From Arenicella sp. (GTDB lineage: Bacteria; Pseudomonadota; Gammaproteobacteria; Arenicellales; Arenicellaceae): a stretch of DNA of 33,396 nt. Positions 8,591 to 30,003 of the stretch are shown here, piece after piece (the first letter of the stretch is position 1; the number at the start of each line of letters is the position of its first letter). The position numbers were made by a program, and so were the translations under genes. A model generated the notes under the pieces. The model saw only the letters and a list, made by a program, of their open reading frames with translations, ran no database searches and was not told the DNA's origin. The stretch covers positions 1 through 33,396 of the forward strand of contig JALZVW010000029.1 of NCBI GenBank assembly GCA_023301745.1, written 5' to 3'.

Positions 8591-9763
8591 TCAGACCATC
8601 TGACGATTAACCTCATCGCGATGCTTCTTTAAATATTTCATAAATGGCGTACCGCCGGTGCCAACTTCGGTTGAATTACCGGTTCCGCCTTTACCCTGCT
8701 TATTGATATAGCTGGCTGCGTACTCTAGATGTTTGGTTCTGAACGCAGCGAGTTTTTCAAGGCACTCGTTATAGGCCTCTTTTACACCGCCTTGGGTCGA
8801 GGCGACGACAGCGGCTCGCAGATCGCCTGACGCATGCACATCTTCGATAAAACGCCGATGGTTTGGCGGCCGATAAATATGCAACTCATCAAGGTAAGCA
8901 CGCAAGGGATCAGCGGCGTGGTTCACTTTGAGTAAAGCGTCCATAGAAGGAACGATTGATGACTGAGAGCCGGTTTGCCCTCTAAAAAACTGACCCTTTC
9001 CTGAAAACTCGTCGACACCTCTATAAACCACACCACTAGGTAGGCCTGGGTTATCTTTAAAACCGTGAATCCATGGGCGAACTCGGTGGAAATAGACATA
9101 GGGATCACAGCGCTCAGGCATACGATCAAAAATTGAATTAATCTCAGCCCAGCCATCAACAATCTTGAGTAAACCAGCCTCCATTGTTGAGCCATCATGA
9201 CGGCTGGCGGCTTTAATTACCCCAGGAAACTCGGCCAATACTTTGCCAGCAGTGGCTTCGATAGCAACGTGGATCAATACAAACCAAGCTTCGTCTTGAC
9301 CACCTAAAAAGGATTGGATCATTTCTATGTTAGATAAGTCTACCTCGCCATTCGGATCGATTTTACGCCAATTGTCTAATACATAATTTGAATAGGTAAG
9401 AATAGGTGGCTGACCGGTCACCTTACTCAGCTGGTGTATCGGTTTCGCCAAGCATGGTGGTAAAAAGTGCACGGCCTCGGTCTGACCCCAAATGTAAGTC
9501 TGAGCCATAAAAGTATAGTGAACCATTGCCATTTTGACTGCGCTAGCGTGAGCCTGCTGGCAAAACTCAGTTAAGTCGACGAGACCAAGCTGATCGATGT
9601 GTGCACGCACACGCCCGGTCGGAATTAACTGCGGCATACGCTTCGCTAAGCAAACAGCCGGCTCAAGTTCCCTTGGTAAGGTCACGTGCTGGGCATCGAA
9701 TTCACTTAGAAAACCGAGGCTTCGACTGATGTGGTAATCGGCAAGAATTGGCTTATTGGTCAT
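8591..9763 (-). CDS. Indoleamine 2,3-dioxygenase
   Basis: A 390-residue haem dioxygenase clearly related to eukaryotic IDO. The C-terminal third aligns by eye with human IDO1. RPPNHRRFIEDV carries the proximal haem ligand (H302 here), VKEAYNECLEKLAAFRTKHL matches the following helix, and VGTGGTPFMKYLKK contains the conserved GTGGT loop. QTGSQSSIVPSMDALL corresponds to the SAGQSS region. The expected reaction is cleavage of L-tryptophan to N-formylkynurenine; some bacterial and invertebrate members have low tryptophan affinity, so another indole substrate is possible. It is cytoplasmic. It is divergent from an Lrp/AsnC regulator 106 bases away, a classic arrangement for control of amino-acid catabolism. 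No formamidase or kynureninase gene is present nearby. Confidence 0.92.
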   Translation of the reverse strand: MTNKPILADYHISRSLGFLSEFDAQHVTLPRELEPAVCLAKRMPQLIPTGRVRAHIDQLGLVDLTEFCQQAHASAVKMAMVHYTFMAQTYIWGQTEAVHFLPPCLAKPIHQLSKVTGQPPILTYSNYVLDNWRKIDPNGEVDLSNIEMIQSFLGGQDEAWFVLIHVAIEATAGKVLAEFPGVIKAASRHDGSTMEAGLLKIVDGWAEINSIFDRMPERCDPYVYFHRVRPWIHGFKDNPGLPSGVVYRGVDEFSGKGQFFRGQTGSQSSIVPSMDALLKVNHAADPLRAYLDELHIYRPPNHRRFIEDVHASGDLRAAVVASTQGGVKEAYNECLEKLAAFRTKHLEYAASYINKQGKGGTGNSTEVGTGGTPFMKYLKKHRDEVNRQMV

Positions 9764-9869
9764 GGTTAGAAAGTAAGATTTGCTTATTTTTTATTTGCCA
9801 AGCAATATTAGTGCTCATTGATTCGAATTAGATTGCTTTTTAAACTAAAAACAAAGGAACAACACAACA
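9764..9869. promoter_or_regulatory. Divergent control region between IDO and Lrp genes
   Basis: This 106-base, very AT-rich region must hold both promoters. It contains small dyads, TTGCCAAGCAA (9795-9805) and the palindrome ATTCGAAT (9821-9828), either of which could be part of an Lrp/AsnC operator. The assignment rests on position and symmetry only. Confidence 0.4.
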
Positions 9870-10322
9870 ATGATCGAGTTAGATCGAATAAATCATAAGA
9901 TTCTTGATGTGCTTGAGAAAAATGGTCGAATCAGTAACTCCGACCTGAGCGAAAAAGTGGGCCTCTCGGCATCAGCGTGCTTACGTCGTGTTCAAGAGCT
10001 TGAGCGCACTGGCGTGATCACCGGTTACAGAGCACAACTAAATCGGTCGGCATTAGGGTCGTCAATCGTAATTTTCGTAATGGTAGGCTTATCAGAACAC
10101 GCGGCGTCTTATGCTAGTGACTTTGAAACCGCGGTTTCGGCATCACGGCAAGTAAGGGAAGTTCATAACGTCACCGGCAGTGTTGAGTACTTATTACGCG
10201 TCGAGGTTGACGACTTAAGCGCCTATAAACAATTTCATAGTGAAGTATTGGGCAAACAGCCTCAGGTGCACAGTATCACGTCGTATATTTGCCTCGGCTC
10301 GCCCAAGGACGAACGAGCGTGA
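9870..10322 (+). CDS. Lrp/AsnC-family transcriptional regulator
   Basis: A 150-residue protein with the standard architecture. The N-terminal helix-turn-helix begins LDRINHKILDVLEKNGRIS and continues DLSEKVGLSASACLRRVQEL, and the C-terminal ligand-binding RAM domain carries VREVHNVTGSVEYLLRVEVD. Members sense amino acids or related metabolites and form octamers. Because the gene is divergent from an indoleamine 2,3-dioxygenase, it probably controls that gene and itself, responding to tryptophan or kynurenine. The Lrp-type regulator KynR controls the kynurenine genes of Pseudomonas aeruginosa, which makes this reasonable, but it is an inference. An AAGGA precedes the ATG. Confidence 0.93.
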   Translation: MIELDRINHKILDVLEKNGRISNSDLSEKVGLSASACLRRVQELERTGVITGYRAQLNRSALGSSIVIFVMVGLSEHAASYASDFETAVSASRQVREVHNVTGSVEYLLRVEVDDLSAYKQFHSEVLGKQPQVHSITSYICLGSPKDERA

Positions 10323-24506: not shown

Positions 24507-24971
24507 CTATTTACTAGGTCGGTGAATCAACTCAATACGATTACCACTGGGTTCGCGAATAATCATATGCTTTGCTGGGCCGCCGTAGGAAAGTTCAGGT
24601 GCAAATTCAACCACCACCCCTGGAATCTCTTTTACCGTTTCGTATAAGGAATCTAAGGCTTCAAAACTTGTCACTTTTATCGCTAAGTGGTGCAACCCGA
24701 CATTATGCTTACGGTCAAACCTCACGGTTTTTTCACTGGTTTGCCAAAGTGTTAAACCCATATCACCGTTATTCATAAATACGGCGGGGTATTTCGAATC
24801 GCGACCGGCTACTTTAAAGCCAAGTGCATCGACAAAGAAATTCGTCGAGCGCTCTAGATCAGAGACTGACAAGCCAATGTGGTCAACGCCTTCGGTGGTT
24901 TTCTCGGCCGCATTGATTATTGATGAGGAAAACCCCAAAAGAAGAATTAGGCTTAACAAGGTATGTTTCAT
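24507..24971 (-). CDS. Exported VOC (glyoxalase/bleomycin-resistance) superfamily protein
   Basis: 154 residues from the ATG at 24971; a TTG four codons earlier is less likely. The first 22 residues are a signal peptide (MKHTLLSLILLLGFSSSIIN, then AAEK). The rest is a single VOC module: GVDHIGLSVSDLERSTNFFV with the metal-ligand histidine, HHLAIKVTSFEALDSLY with a second histidine, and IREPSGNRIELIHRPS with the ligand glutamate. Ligands H, H and E are therefore in place for a divalent metal, as in glyoxalases and extradiol dioxygenases. Most VOC enzymes are cytoplasmic, so export is unusual. Reaction unknown. Confidence 0.82.
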   Translation of the reverse strand: MKHTLLSLILLLGFSSSIINAAEKTTEGVDHIGLSVSDLERSTNFFVDALGFKVAGRDSKYPAVFMNNGDMGLTLWQTSEKTVRFDRKHNVGLHHLAIKVTSFEALDSLYETVKEIPGVVVEFAPELSYGGPAKHMIIREPSGNRIELIHRPSK

Positions 24972-25042
24972 TTTTACTCTCAATTTTATTCAGATAAGTC
25001 ATTAGTGACCTTCCAGATTGTTTAATTATGGCATAGGCATTT

Positions 25043-25489
25043 CTAACTATCGTGAATTAGCCTTTTCCCCAAGCCAATAACATTATCGTCGAAGTAACCA
25101 AGTGCGATATAAAAGGCGATGGTGCTGGCATTCGTATTTCGTACTTGCAGGTTAATCTTGGGGCAACCCTTGGCCAATAGCTCAGCTTCAATGCGGCTCA
25201 TTAATGCTGATGCAATTCCCTGACGCTGGCAACTCGGCGCTACGCCTAAGTAATTTATCCAGCCTCGATGACCCTCATAACCACCCATCACCGAAGCAAC
25301 AATGTTATCGCCTCGCTGTGCTACCAGAAATAGCTCAGGGTTAACCTTCAACTTGCGCTGAATGTCTTTGCTCGAATCGTTGTTCGGCGTCACTAGACCA
25401 AGCTCTTGCCATAAAGCAATAACGCGCTCTTGGTCATCAATATGAAAAGGGCGAATGTCGATCATGTTAACTATATTAGAGGCGGCCAT
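25043..25489 (-). CDS. ypeA: GNAT-family acetyltransferase YpeA
   Basis: A 148-residue N-acetyltransferase very close in pattern to E. coli YpeA. It shares DIQRKLKVNPELFLVA, VMGGYEGHRGWINYLGVAP, the acetyl-CoA-binding RQGIASAL, and GCPKINLQV, ending LGKRL. The true start may be the internal ATG at 25465 (MIDIRPF), which matches the family N-terminus; neither ATG has a clear ribosome binding site. It transfers acetyl from acetyl-CoA to an unidentified substrate in the cytoplasm. Spacing of about 70 bases to both same-strand neighbours allows, but does not prove, an operon. Confidence 0.85.
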   Translation of the reverse strand: MAASNIVNMIDIRPFHIDDQERVIALWQELGLVTPNNDSSKDIQRKLKVNPELFLVAQRGDNIVASVMGGYEGHRGWINYLGVAPSCQRQGIASALMSRIEAELLAKGCPKINLQVRNTNASTIAFYIALGYFDDNVIGLGKRLIHDS

Positions 25490-25560: not shown

Positions 25561-26490
25561 TCAAAGAGGTAAGCTCAAGCCTTCAATCGCTATATTGAAG
25601 CCTTTAGACCTCACCAAAGCCGCCTCGTTGCTATTAGTATTTAGCAGCGGATTGGTGTGATTCATATGAATAAACCATACCTTATTTTTGTGTTTCTCTT
25701 TCAAGCTATCAAGTAAGCTCATGCTTTGAGTCACTAAAGGGTGGGGAACTTTAGACATATCTCTACCCGGTAACTCACCATCGCCAAAGAATGTAGCGTC
25801 GATCAATGCATAGTCAACCGATTTAACCAAGCTGGCTAAATCCACATTCCATTTTGACCACTTGTTAATATCTGGAATGAAAATTGCGGTTTTAGTTGGG
25901 CCGTCAATGCGGTACCCCACCGTTTCTGAAAATTCATCTCGATGCGGCACTAAAAACGGCGTCACTGTTAGCAATCCAAGATCGATCGAGCGTTCGCTTT
26001 CCAGCGGCCTAAGTTGAATGTTTTCATAATTCACCAGTTGGCTCCATGGCCCATTATTGTTTAAAAACGATCGCATTCTAGGCATGGCATAGACTGGTAC
26101 TTTGCTCGCCCCCATTGCCTCATGTCCGAAAAACATTAAGCCGGCATAATGGCCGATGTGCGCATGAGTCAGGAACACTCCGTCCAAACGGTATCGCTCA
26201 TTAGGCGCTTGCTGATCAAGCGCGAAGAGTTGTGAAGGTAAATTAGGTGTGGCTTCAAATAAATATTTTCGCTTCGAATGAGGGTCTATTAAGCCTAACG
26301 ATGTTGCGCCACGGCGCAAAGACGCATCGTTCCACGCGGGCAAACAATGCGGCTTATAACAACCGGCTTGGGGATAACCAGCGTCTTGCCCTACACCAAG
26401 CACATAAAGGTATGGCGCTTGAGTTTTTTCTGCATGTGCAGCGTCAACTAGAATAAAGTTAAACACCATTATTATGATAATAGATTTCAA
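25561..26490 (-). CDS. Exported PqqB-like metallo-beta-lactamase-fold protein, TTG start
   Basis: A 309-residue protein resembling PqqB and related MBL-fold hydrolases. It has LYVLGVGQDAGYPQAGCY with C-x4-C (GCYKPHC), an MBL strand ending LTHAHIGHYAGL, and later PHRDEFSETVGYRI, FIPDIN, LIDATFF and HMNHTNP. The usual metal motif HxHxDH reads H-A-H-I-G-H, so the aspartate is replaced by glycine. The TTG at 26490 is supported by GAGG upstream and by the signal peptide it completes (MKSIIIIMVFNFILVDAAHA). No other pqq gene is nearby, so it is unlikely to serve PQQ synthesis. A hydrolase or oxygenase acting in the periplasm is possible. Confidence 0.78.
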   Translation of the reverse strand: MKSIIIIMVFNFILVDAAHAEKTQAPYLYVLGVGQDAGYPQAGCYKPHCLPAWNDASLRRGATSLGLIDPHSKRKYLFEATPNLPSQLFALDQQAPNERYRLDGVFLTHAHIGHYAGLMFFGHEAMGASKVPVYAMPRMRSFLNNNGPWSQLVNYENIQLRPLESERSIDLGLLTVTPFLVPHRDEFSETVGYRIDGPTKTAIFIPDINKWSKWNVDLASLVKSVDYALIDATFFGDGELPGRDMSKVPHPLVTQSMSLLDSLKEKHKNKVWFIHMNHTNPLLNTNSNEAALVRSKGFNIAIEGLSLPL

Positions 26491-26536
26491 GACTCAACCT
26501 CACCATTTATTGGCAACCACTATTAATTTCAAAAAA

Positions 26537-27292
26537 CTATAACATCATTACTACCGCTGATGCCGCTGTGGCCGTGATCACAAACCAACGAAAACCCGTT
26601 TCCGGTATTTTCTTTACCACACTGACGCCCAGTATCGCGCCAATAGCAATCGCGGGAGTTAAGCTAAGGTCGAGCAAAAATGTATCCCAAGTAATTGTCT
26701 CCCAAACGAATACATGAAACGGCACTTTAACGAGGTTAATTGATAAAAAGAACCACGCTGCGGTGCCAATAAATTGATTCTTTGGCAACTGCATAGAAAG
26801 CAGGTACAGCGCCATTACAGGGGCCGCCAAATTGCCGATCATACTCGTAAAGCCGCCAACGACACCGATAGTAGCGACAAACCAAAACGAATTTGGGATT
26901 TTAATATTAGAGCTTTTCTCTCGCCATATCGTGATACCGAGTAATACGAATATTATTGTCACCATCGAATGGCTGAACACCACGTCGTTCACAACGGTAC
27001 CCGCAACCGCACCCAAAACGACACCGAAAAATGAAAATGGGATTAACTTTTTTAGGTAATCTAAACTGGCATGTTGATGATAGTAATAGACGCCAAAGAG
27101 GTCGGCGAAAATCAAAATGGGTAACATCACACCGGTAGACGCCTTACCGCCAAACACCAGCGCCAGCATAGGTATGGCCATCATTCCAGCACCTTGTAAG
27201 CCGGTCTTAGCCATTCCCACTAAGGTAGCCACGGCGACTATCAAACCAAGCTCATAGAAGGTAAAACTAAAAGACGCTATCTCGAAGGTCAT
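26537..27292 (-). CDS. TauE/SafE family permease
   Basis: A 251-residue integral membrane protein with about eight hydrophobic segments, arranged as two repeated halves. The diagnostic glycine-rich blocks are GMAKTGLQGAGMMAIPMLAL in the first half and GGFTSMIGNLAAPVMALYLL in the second. The family (also called sulfite exporter TauE/SafE, TSUP) moves organosulfur anions, sulfite or other small anions across the inner membrane. The substrate cannot be told from sequence. It lies 46 bases upstream of the PqqB-like gene on the same strand and is likely co-transcribed with it. A second family member occurs at 29272-30003. Confidence 0.87.
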   Translation of the reverse strand: MTFEIASFSFTFYELGLIVAVATLVGMAKTGLQGAGMMAIPMLALVFGGKASTGVMLPILIFADLFGVYYYHQHASLDYLKKLIPFSFFGVVLGAVAGTVVNDVVFSHSMVTIIFVLLGITIWREKSSNIKIPNSFWFVATIGVVGGFTSMIGNLAAPVMALYLLSMQLPKNQFIGTAAWFFLSINLVKVPFHVFVWETITWDTFLLDLSLTPAIAIGAILGVSVVKKIPETGFRWFVITATAASAVVMML

Positions 27293-29271: not shown

Positions 29272-30003
29272 ATGCCCGACTCCATTTTTTTCTTTGTTAT
29301 TTTCGCACTCGTGCTTTCGGCGTTTATAAAAGGCTCTTTGGGCTTAGGCTTTTCTACAATCTGCCTCGCAATATTGGCTAACGTGATCGAGCTAAAAACA
29401 GCGATTTCGATTGTTGTCTTGCCGTCACTGCTTTCTAATATCATAGTAATGATTGACGCTGGAAACGTAAGCATTAGCCTGAAAAAATTTGCCAGCATGA
29501 TTTTCATGGCCGTACCAGGCATGTTTATCGGGCTACAACTGTTGAGCCAAGCCGACAACACAATGTCTATTACAGTGCTGGCCACCGTGTTAATTATCTA
29601 TGGTTGTTGGGGCTGGGTAAATCACCGATTCAAACTCGATGATCTCTATATACCAAGATTAAATCCTTTTATTGGCTTTATTACAGGCGGCGTAAATGGG
29701 GCCACCGGTTCACAAATTTTTCCAATAATGCCCTATTTACTGTCATTAAATATCAGCAAAGATGTGTTAGTTCAAACAATCAATTTATCGTTTACGCTTA
29801 ATAGTCTAATCATGCTGGGCTTCTTATACACTATGGGCACCTTAGACACTGATTCAATCGCCACATACTCATTGGGCGTGATTCCGGTGGCACTTGGAGT
29901 TTGGCTTGGAGGAAAAGTGCGTAAGCGCATACCAGAAGAACTTTTCAAGCGAGCGGTAATGATTTTGATTATTTGCTTAGGTTTGCTGCTACTCACTAAC
30001 TAG
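29272..30003 (+). CDS. TauE/SafE family permease, second copy
   Basis: A 243-residue membrane protein of the same family as the one at 26537-27292. The first-half signature is FIKGSLGLGFSTICLAILAN and the second-half signature GFITGGVNGATGSQIFPIMP. About eight hydrophobic segments are seen. The two copies are clearly different in sequence, so they are not a recent duplication. Substrates are probably small anions such as sulfite or organosulfonates, but this is by family only. No strong ribosome binding site precedes the ATG. It leads a same-strand series with the DUF2505, DUF2937 and DUF1330 genes, spaced 70-95 bases apart. Confidence 0.87.
   Translation: MPDSIFFFVIFALVLSAFIKGSLGLGFSTICLAILANVIELKTAISIVVLPSLLSNIIVMIDAGNVSISLKKFASMIFMAVPGMFIGLQLLSQADNTMSITVLATVLIIYGCWGWVNHRFKLDDLYIPRLNPFIGFITGGVNGATGSQIFPIMPYLLSLNISKDVLVQTINLSFTLNSLIMLGFLYTMGTLDTDSIATYSLGVIPVALGVWLGGKVRKRIPEELFKRAVMILIICLGLLLLTN

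Follow-up and report, generated by a model that had tools for sequence, protein, structure and literature searches.

Our analysis places the gene at positions 25561 to 26490 of the window (the whole stretch of Arenicella sp. DNA analysed here, 33,396 nucleotides) in an unnamed, widespread and mostly exported sister family of PqqB with a rearranged metal motif. HxHxDH is the usual hallmark by which the metallo-beta-lactamase (MBL) superfamily is recognised. In place of this canonical motif, HxHxGH was found in all 102 aligned rows of the family (100 of them distinct), and a motif held this uniformly is a family mark and not a product of chance.

Reading frame, predicted export and fold

The features that define the gene and its start are as follows:

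25561 to 26490, minus strand: predicted exported PqqB-sister MBL-fold protein of the HxHxGH family, 309 aa, TTG start (open reading frame, PF12706, TIGR02108, AF2 model)
26498 to 26504, minus strand: GGTGAGG, ribosome-binding-like, 5' of the TTG (sequence)
26431 to 26490, minus strand: putative Sec signal peptide, residues 1-20, cleavage between AHA and E (by eye; AF2 helix 2-19; N-termini of relatives)

The TTG start is sound: no other start codon comes between it and an in-frame TGA at 26494-26496, two codons upstream, GGTGAGG precedes it at a normal spacing, and it opens a full signal-peptide shape. Judged by eye, the N-terminus (MKSIIIIMVFNFILVDAAHA, with E following the cut) is shaped like a Sec signal peptide, AxA cleavage site included. 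The original prediction, which had described an exported PqqB-like protein with a TTG start and a signal peptide, is borne out on these points. A crude rule sorted the N-termini of the 102 family rows into 64 hydrophobic, 34 lipobox and four of neither type (L032 and L061, both truncated, the weakly hydrophobic L075, and L154); over-long ORF starts were left in, and the rule places the haloarchaeal row L191, which we read as cytosolic, marginally above its threshold. From these sequences we infer that the protein is exported to the periplasm and that many of its relatives are lipid-anchored. The N-terminus of the deep-branching member L154 looks Tat-type (RRHFLTLLA), in which case the protein would be exported already folded. 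The GC fraction of the gene is 0.445 against 0.444 in the window, giving no compositional sign of transfer.

The protein matched Lactamase_B_2 (PF12706) at 80.5 bits, above the gathering cut-off of 27, and its best NCBIfam match was PqqB (TIGR02108), at 113.6 bits against a curated cut-off of 245. An AF2 model built from 48 sequences (mean pLDDT 90.7) had the PqqB fold, the best match being 4z7r with a VIA Z of 29.6 and an rmsd of 2.6 over 271 aligned residues at 26% identity. Among the 50 matches listed, the PqqB structures 4z7r, 1xto, 4z67 and 6e13 resembled the model across most of its length (Z 27.4-29.6, 24-26% identity), followed by PhnP-family proteins (TIGR03307; 3g1p and 6b9v, Z about 23.5), Apyc1, YhfI and RNase Z; persulfide dioxygenases were not among them. 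The HxHxGH family is a coherent one, sister to PqqB: a tree made by a quick method grouped its rows on a single starred branch (99) and PqqB on another (96), with L191, L154 and L062 as long branches of unsure placement. Its rows include L041, which is gammaproteobacterial, L082 and L083, which come from another class of the window's phylum, and L011, a Neomarinimicrobiota MAG, and the Bacteroidota group contains one Rhodothermota row. We found no discussion of an exported PqqB-like family or of HxHxGH in the open-access literature, subscription journals lying outside the scope of the search.

The contig scan uncovered 47 loci with relatives at 43-68% identity. The gene is sparse in the window's phylum, where six of 398 genomes, the window's own included, carried it at E 1e-20. 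Only the window's own genome passed that threshold in a sample of 185 genomes from its class; 27 others matched at E 1e-5, the best at 1.4e-14 or weaker, and those weaker matches whose protein was read had PqqB features. The gene was present in 6/119 relatives of G459, a host from the same phylum and another class. It was commoner than in the window's phylum among the Bacteroidota (41 of 296 genomes, counting the Polaribacter host whose phylum this is). A plasmid of the haloarchaeon Halostella pelagica carries a relative at 36% identity.

The metal site and the loop around D36

The residues that would build the metal centre, and the two flanking elements that differ from PqqB, are encoded at these positions:

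26371 to 26397, minus strand: loop after strand 1, G32-P40 (GVGQDAGYP), with invariant Q35-D36 (D36 codon 26383-26385); D36 in 99/99 rows with a letter there
26344 to 26361, minus strand: C44-x3-H48-C49, probable structural zinc site together with H278 (25657-25659) (alignment; comparison with the PqqB zinc finger)
26140 to 26169, minus strand: THAHIGHYAG, residues 108-117, the HxHxGH motif, with G113 (codon 26152-26154) for Asp in 102/102 rows
25933 to 25944, minus strand: H183-R184-D185-E186, loop with the site-1 His ligand; H183 in 102/102 rows, aligned with the His of PhnP-like L190
25870 to 25872, minus strand: D207, the bridging Asp of canonical MBL sites; 102/102 rows, Gly/Ala/Thr in 30/30 PqqB-type rows
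25741 to 25743, minus strand: H250, candidate proton-shuttle pair with D231 (25798-25800); both in 102/102 rows
25666 to 25668, minus strand: H275, C-terminal metal ligand in FIHMNHTNP; 102/102 rows

The absence of the second-site Asp, reported at first for the single sequence, thus extends to the whole alignment. Invariant in all 102 rows were H109, H111, G113, H114, H183, D207, D231, E239, H250 and H275. Two of these rows, L053x and L185, repeat L062 and L148 and were omitted from the set of 100; L024 (on the same contig as L058), L076 and L150 (the gene being missed by the ORF picker) and L145 were dropped before counting. The MBL gene of L145 (genome G609) is interrupted by an in-frame TAA. 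The H250 position may serve as the proton shuttle, as in RNase Z.

In a profile alignment with PhnP-like proteins that carry HxHxDH, the ligands of the family fell on their counterparts, with the Asp replaced; the remaining canonical ligands H183, D207 and H275, invariant in the family, were present in 8/8 PhnP-like rows. The two groups thus share fold and ligand positions, the Asp excepted, and PhnP-family proteins, unlike the HxHxGH family, keep HxHxDH. The stretches NGPW, SETVG and IPDIxKW of the family were unmatched in PhnP-like L190. The comparison with PqqB gave the reverse picture. D231, E239, H250, H275, N277 and N280 are common to both, whereas the 30 PqqB-type rows (recognised from motifs and sequence matches, without a TIGR02108 score for each) had all lost H109, H111 and D207 and all kept D113, reading D/N/G109, Q/D/E111, D113 and G/A/T207 where the HxHxGH family reads H, H, G and D. 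The changes in PqqB and in the HxHxGH family thus fall on opposite parts of the metal site; because PqqB has the reverse pattern, the protein studied here is not PqqB.

A second difference lies in the loop after strand 1, glycine-rich (AGGG) in PqqB and QDAG in the HxHxGH family. Column 36 is Gly in every one of the 30 PqqB-type rows. The combination of D36 with G113 was found in 99 of 100 members, the other having a gap, and G36 with D113 in 30/30 PqqB-type rows. An Asp at column 36 beside D113 also occurs in 3/8 PhnP-like rows, where the alignment is doubtful; the better-aligned ones have Ser or Ala. In the available part of the PqqB paper, a close-up of the putative active site is cited for the loop GSAAGGG (PMC2294125), and the protein carries no such loop. 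The D36/G113 swap, taken with this placing of the loop by the part of PMC2294125 available, leads us to propose that D36 supplies the carboxylate lost from the second site. D36 could instead be structural. The fuller version of the proposal is speculative and on the unlikely side: the clade would have lost the Asp of HxHxDH and replaced it functionally with D36, and the resulting centre, either binuclear and rearranged or mononuclear with 2-His-1-carboxylate ligation, would have new chemistry. On this view, the mostly exported family would seem to have spread through gene transfer among marine Gammaproteobacteria, Bacteroidota and at least one haloarchaeon.

Other acids were considered for the part of a residue new to the clade. 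D207 was rejected, for it is missing from PqqB yet present in 8/8 PhnP-like rows and must be old. E124 was also rejected, as it faces a gap in one alignment and a PqqB Glu in the other, and so was E186, since at least 8/30 PqqB-type rows have Asp at column 186. E186, invariant except in one row, would be a weaker candidate than D36 for supplying the missing carboxylate.

The probable structural zinc site seems altered relative to PqqB, judging from the alignment. The accessible portion of PMC2294125 describes the PqqB zinc finger as C19/C21/C24/N272. This arrangement of three Cys and an Asn is replaced in most family rows by C44-x3-[H/C/N]-C49 with H278. The cytosolic-looking L062 and the haloarchaeal L191 have C44-x-C46-x2-C49 with H278, and the PhnP-like proteins L054, L187, L188 and L190 likewise have CxCxxC with a His. 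C44 and C49 were lost and H278 kept in ten rows (L044, L075, L077-L081 and L151-L153); position 278 is His in 101/102 rows and Asn in L154.

Neighbouring genes and PQQ synthesis

Two genes flank the MBL gene on its own strand:

26537 to 27292, minus strand: TauE/SafE permease (PF01925, 1.7e-28), present in most genus-mates
25043 to 25489, minus strand: GNAT acetyltransferase (domain scan, genus loci), found 3' of TauE in two genus-mates without an MBL gene there

The permease gene ends 46 bases upstream of the MBL gene, as the original prediction had noted; from this proximity it had proposed a two-gene system, in which the enzyme would make or remove a small anion carried by the permease, to be refuted if the pair proved not to be conserved. 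TauE/SafE permeases with partner enzymes form known systems, and the shared strand and short gap in the window fit such an arrangement, but the adjacency is not conserved. TauE was the immediate upstream neighbour in 1/96 loci, the window's own (25 of the 119 neighbour families were listed, by member count and then E-value, and a second TauE would have been listed; the contigs of L032, L043 and L061 hold no ORF upstream of the gene, and these loci stand outside the 96). A blastp search of nine window proteins against the 47 contig-scan loci, flanks of up to 8 kb included, found neither TauE (1e-6) nor any other of the eight neighbours. Among genus-mates, TauE was present in 14/17 genomes (E 1e-40) against 4/17 for the MBL gene, and the four with both (G001, G008, G010 and G016) have them on different contigs; in G016, the 370 bases 3' of TauE hold no MBL N-terminus, which speaks against a pair hidden by a contig break. 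In G009 (L211), TauE, GNAT and DUF6959 stand in the window's order, but the MBL and VOC genes are missing and TauE and GNAT are 91 bases apart; G006 (L210) has TauE-GNAT-DUF6959-aminopeptidase without the MBL gene, a 124-aa opposite-strand ORF lying between TauE and GNAT. G007 has a glutaredoxin-like gene (by eye) 3' of TauE. Since these genus loci have TauE and GNAT without the MBL gene, the latter occupies a variable slot between the two, by gain here or by loss in relatives, and its adjacency to TauE thus seems accidental. The two-gene system is refuted as a conserved one, and what is left of it, a private pairing in the window's strain, is extremely improbable.

Two further genes were observed in this part of the window. 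A second TauE/SafE permease (PF01925) lies at 29272-30003 on the plus strand, about 2 kb from the first and on the opposite strand. The VOC/glyoxalase-fold gene missing from L211 is a TTG-started ORF at 24507-24983 on the minus strand, with a signal-peptide-like N-terminus (by eye).

No recurrent partner gene was general among the families listed for the 96 upstream and 97 downstream neighbours, and we do not infer a substrate for this reason. The ORF picker took the longest non-overlapping ORFs of at least 80 aa from their earliest start, so that some N-termini are too long and some of the neighbours counted may be spurious, especially in G+C-rich genomes. Upstream, 11/96 neighbours matched SnoaL_2, three of 96 were amidohydrolases and three of 96 loci had a rhodanese-domain gene directly upstream. 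Downstream, serine beta-lactamase-type and carboxymuconolactone-decarboxylase-type genes accounted for 7/97 each and amidohydrolases for 2/97, and most of the 11 ABC_tran matches trace back to a single gammaproteobacterial synteny. The start of the MBL gene overlaps, by 4 nt in L075 and by 1 nt in L079, with the gene of an amidohydrolase whose N-terminus is signal-like, and in the genus-mate locus L059 an amidohydrolase ends just 5' of it. The haloarchaeal relative is preceded by a polyamine/aminoethylphosphonate-type ABC transporter, a class III aminotransferase and an Amidohydro_2 gene. These neighbours, found in few lineages, hint at the breakdown of small nitrogen compounds.

Some arrangements were seen besides. 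In two unrelated groups of hosts (L003, L005-L008 and L013; L117, L118, L123, L125, L127, L131, L134 and L135), the nearest upstream gene is on the same strand and looks SnoaL-like by eye. In L001, L002, L004, L009, L010, L012, L028, L033 and L041, the start of the HxHxGH gene shares 4 nt with a gene of about 150 aa whose product looks like a membrane protein; the one copy examined, that of L001, had no Pfam match. In L075, a second Lactamase_B_2 protein, lipoprotein-like by eye, is encoded at 8924-9877 on the plus strand directly 3' of the HxHxGH gene, making a tandem of MBL folds.

A role in PQQ synthesis was considered and rejected. No pqq protein was found among the ten window proteins scanned around the MBL gene, in agreement with the first reading of this DNA, and PqqC was not found anywhere in the window's genome; of the host genomes searched, 0/23 had it (several of them drafts, 75-88% complete). 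The controls within that search were silent, and G021, with a pqqB-type gene beside pqqC, was therefore searched as a positive control; it scored 360.5 bits, whereas six genomes of the window's genus, searched along with it, gave no signal. The signal-like N-terminus and the absence of PqqC from these hosts further set the HxHxGH family apart from PqqB.

Possible functions of the HxHxGH family

We give an even chance to the reading we favour, in which the gene stands alone, with no fixed partner, and its product, which has no part in PQQ synthesis, is a periplasmic hydrolase of small molecules whose metal site is mononuclear or rearranged. The protein retains site 1 (H109, H111 and H183), the bridging D207, the site-2 histidines H114 and H275 and the D231/H250 pair. 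With these elements intact, and by analogy with the fold family, it would bind at least one metal, activate water and hydrolyse a small molecule in the periplasm; hydrolysis and the number of metals are both read from this likeness. The second-site Asp being gone, either one metal would be strongly bound at site 1 or two would be held with the help of the D36 carboxylate. A decayed enzyme is hardly to be expected, as the ligand set is invariant in rows from several bacterial phyla as well as an archaeon.

In the MBL hydrolases that have been studied, losing the second-site Asp cripples catalysis, and its loss here would also fit an oxygenase or a binding role. The main rival, unlikely in our estimation, is a periplasmic mononuclear non-haem iron oxygenase or hydroxylase with chemistry like that of PqqB or the persulfide dioxygenases. 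The loss leaves two possible two-His-one-Asp sets, H114/H275/D207 and H109/H183/D207, and PqqB, sister to the family and its nearest characterised relative, is called an iron-dependent hydroxylase and not a hydrolase in the accessible part of a review (PMC11002830). However, given that PqqB-type rows are without H109, H111 and D207 and have D113 instead, an iron site in the HxHxGH family could not use the same residues as that of PqqB. The rhodanese-domain neighbours would suit this chemistry, but by their N-termini the three loci (L034, L035 and L042) look like one Eudoraea lineage, and the closest solved folds among the 50 matches listed are relatives of PqqB, PhnP and RNase Z.

It is very unlikely that the protein is no enzyme and works as a metal-dependent binding or chaperone protein, holding a periplasmic ligand in a PqqB-like cavity. 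The loss of an Asp that is usually catalytic would agree with this, and PqqB was once proposed to be a carrier, according to the available part of PMC2294125, but the invariance of the other metal ligands and of D231/H250 speaks against it. An ordinary two-metal hydrolase, to which the change from Asp to Gly would be functionally meaningless, is quite improbable: the fold and the other ligands are standard, yet all 102 rows show the change, and it goes together with D36.

The HxHxGH genes are so similar to pqqB that they could be mistaken for genes of PQQ synthesis, although none of the hosts searched carried PqqC. A clade that lacks the hallmark Asp in all rows of the alignment, retains the other ligands and has a new invariant D36 in a loop placed by PMC2294125 at the putative active site of PqqB is a natural experiment on how the MBL fold holds its metal.
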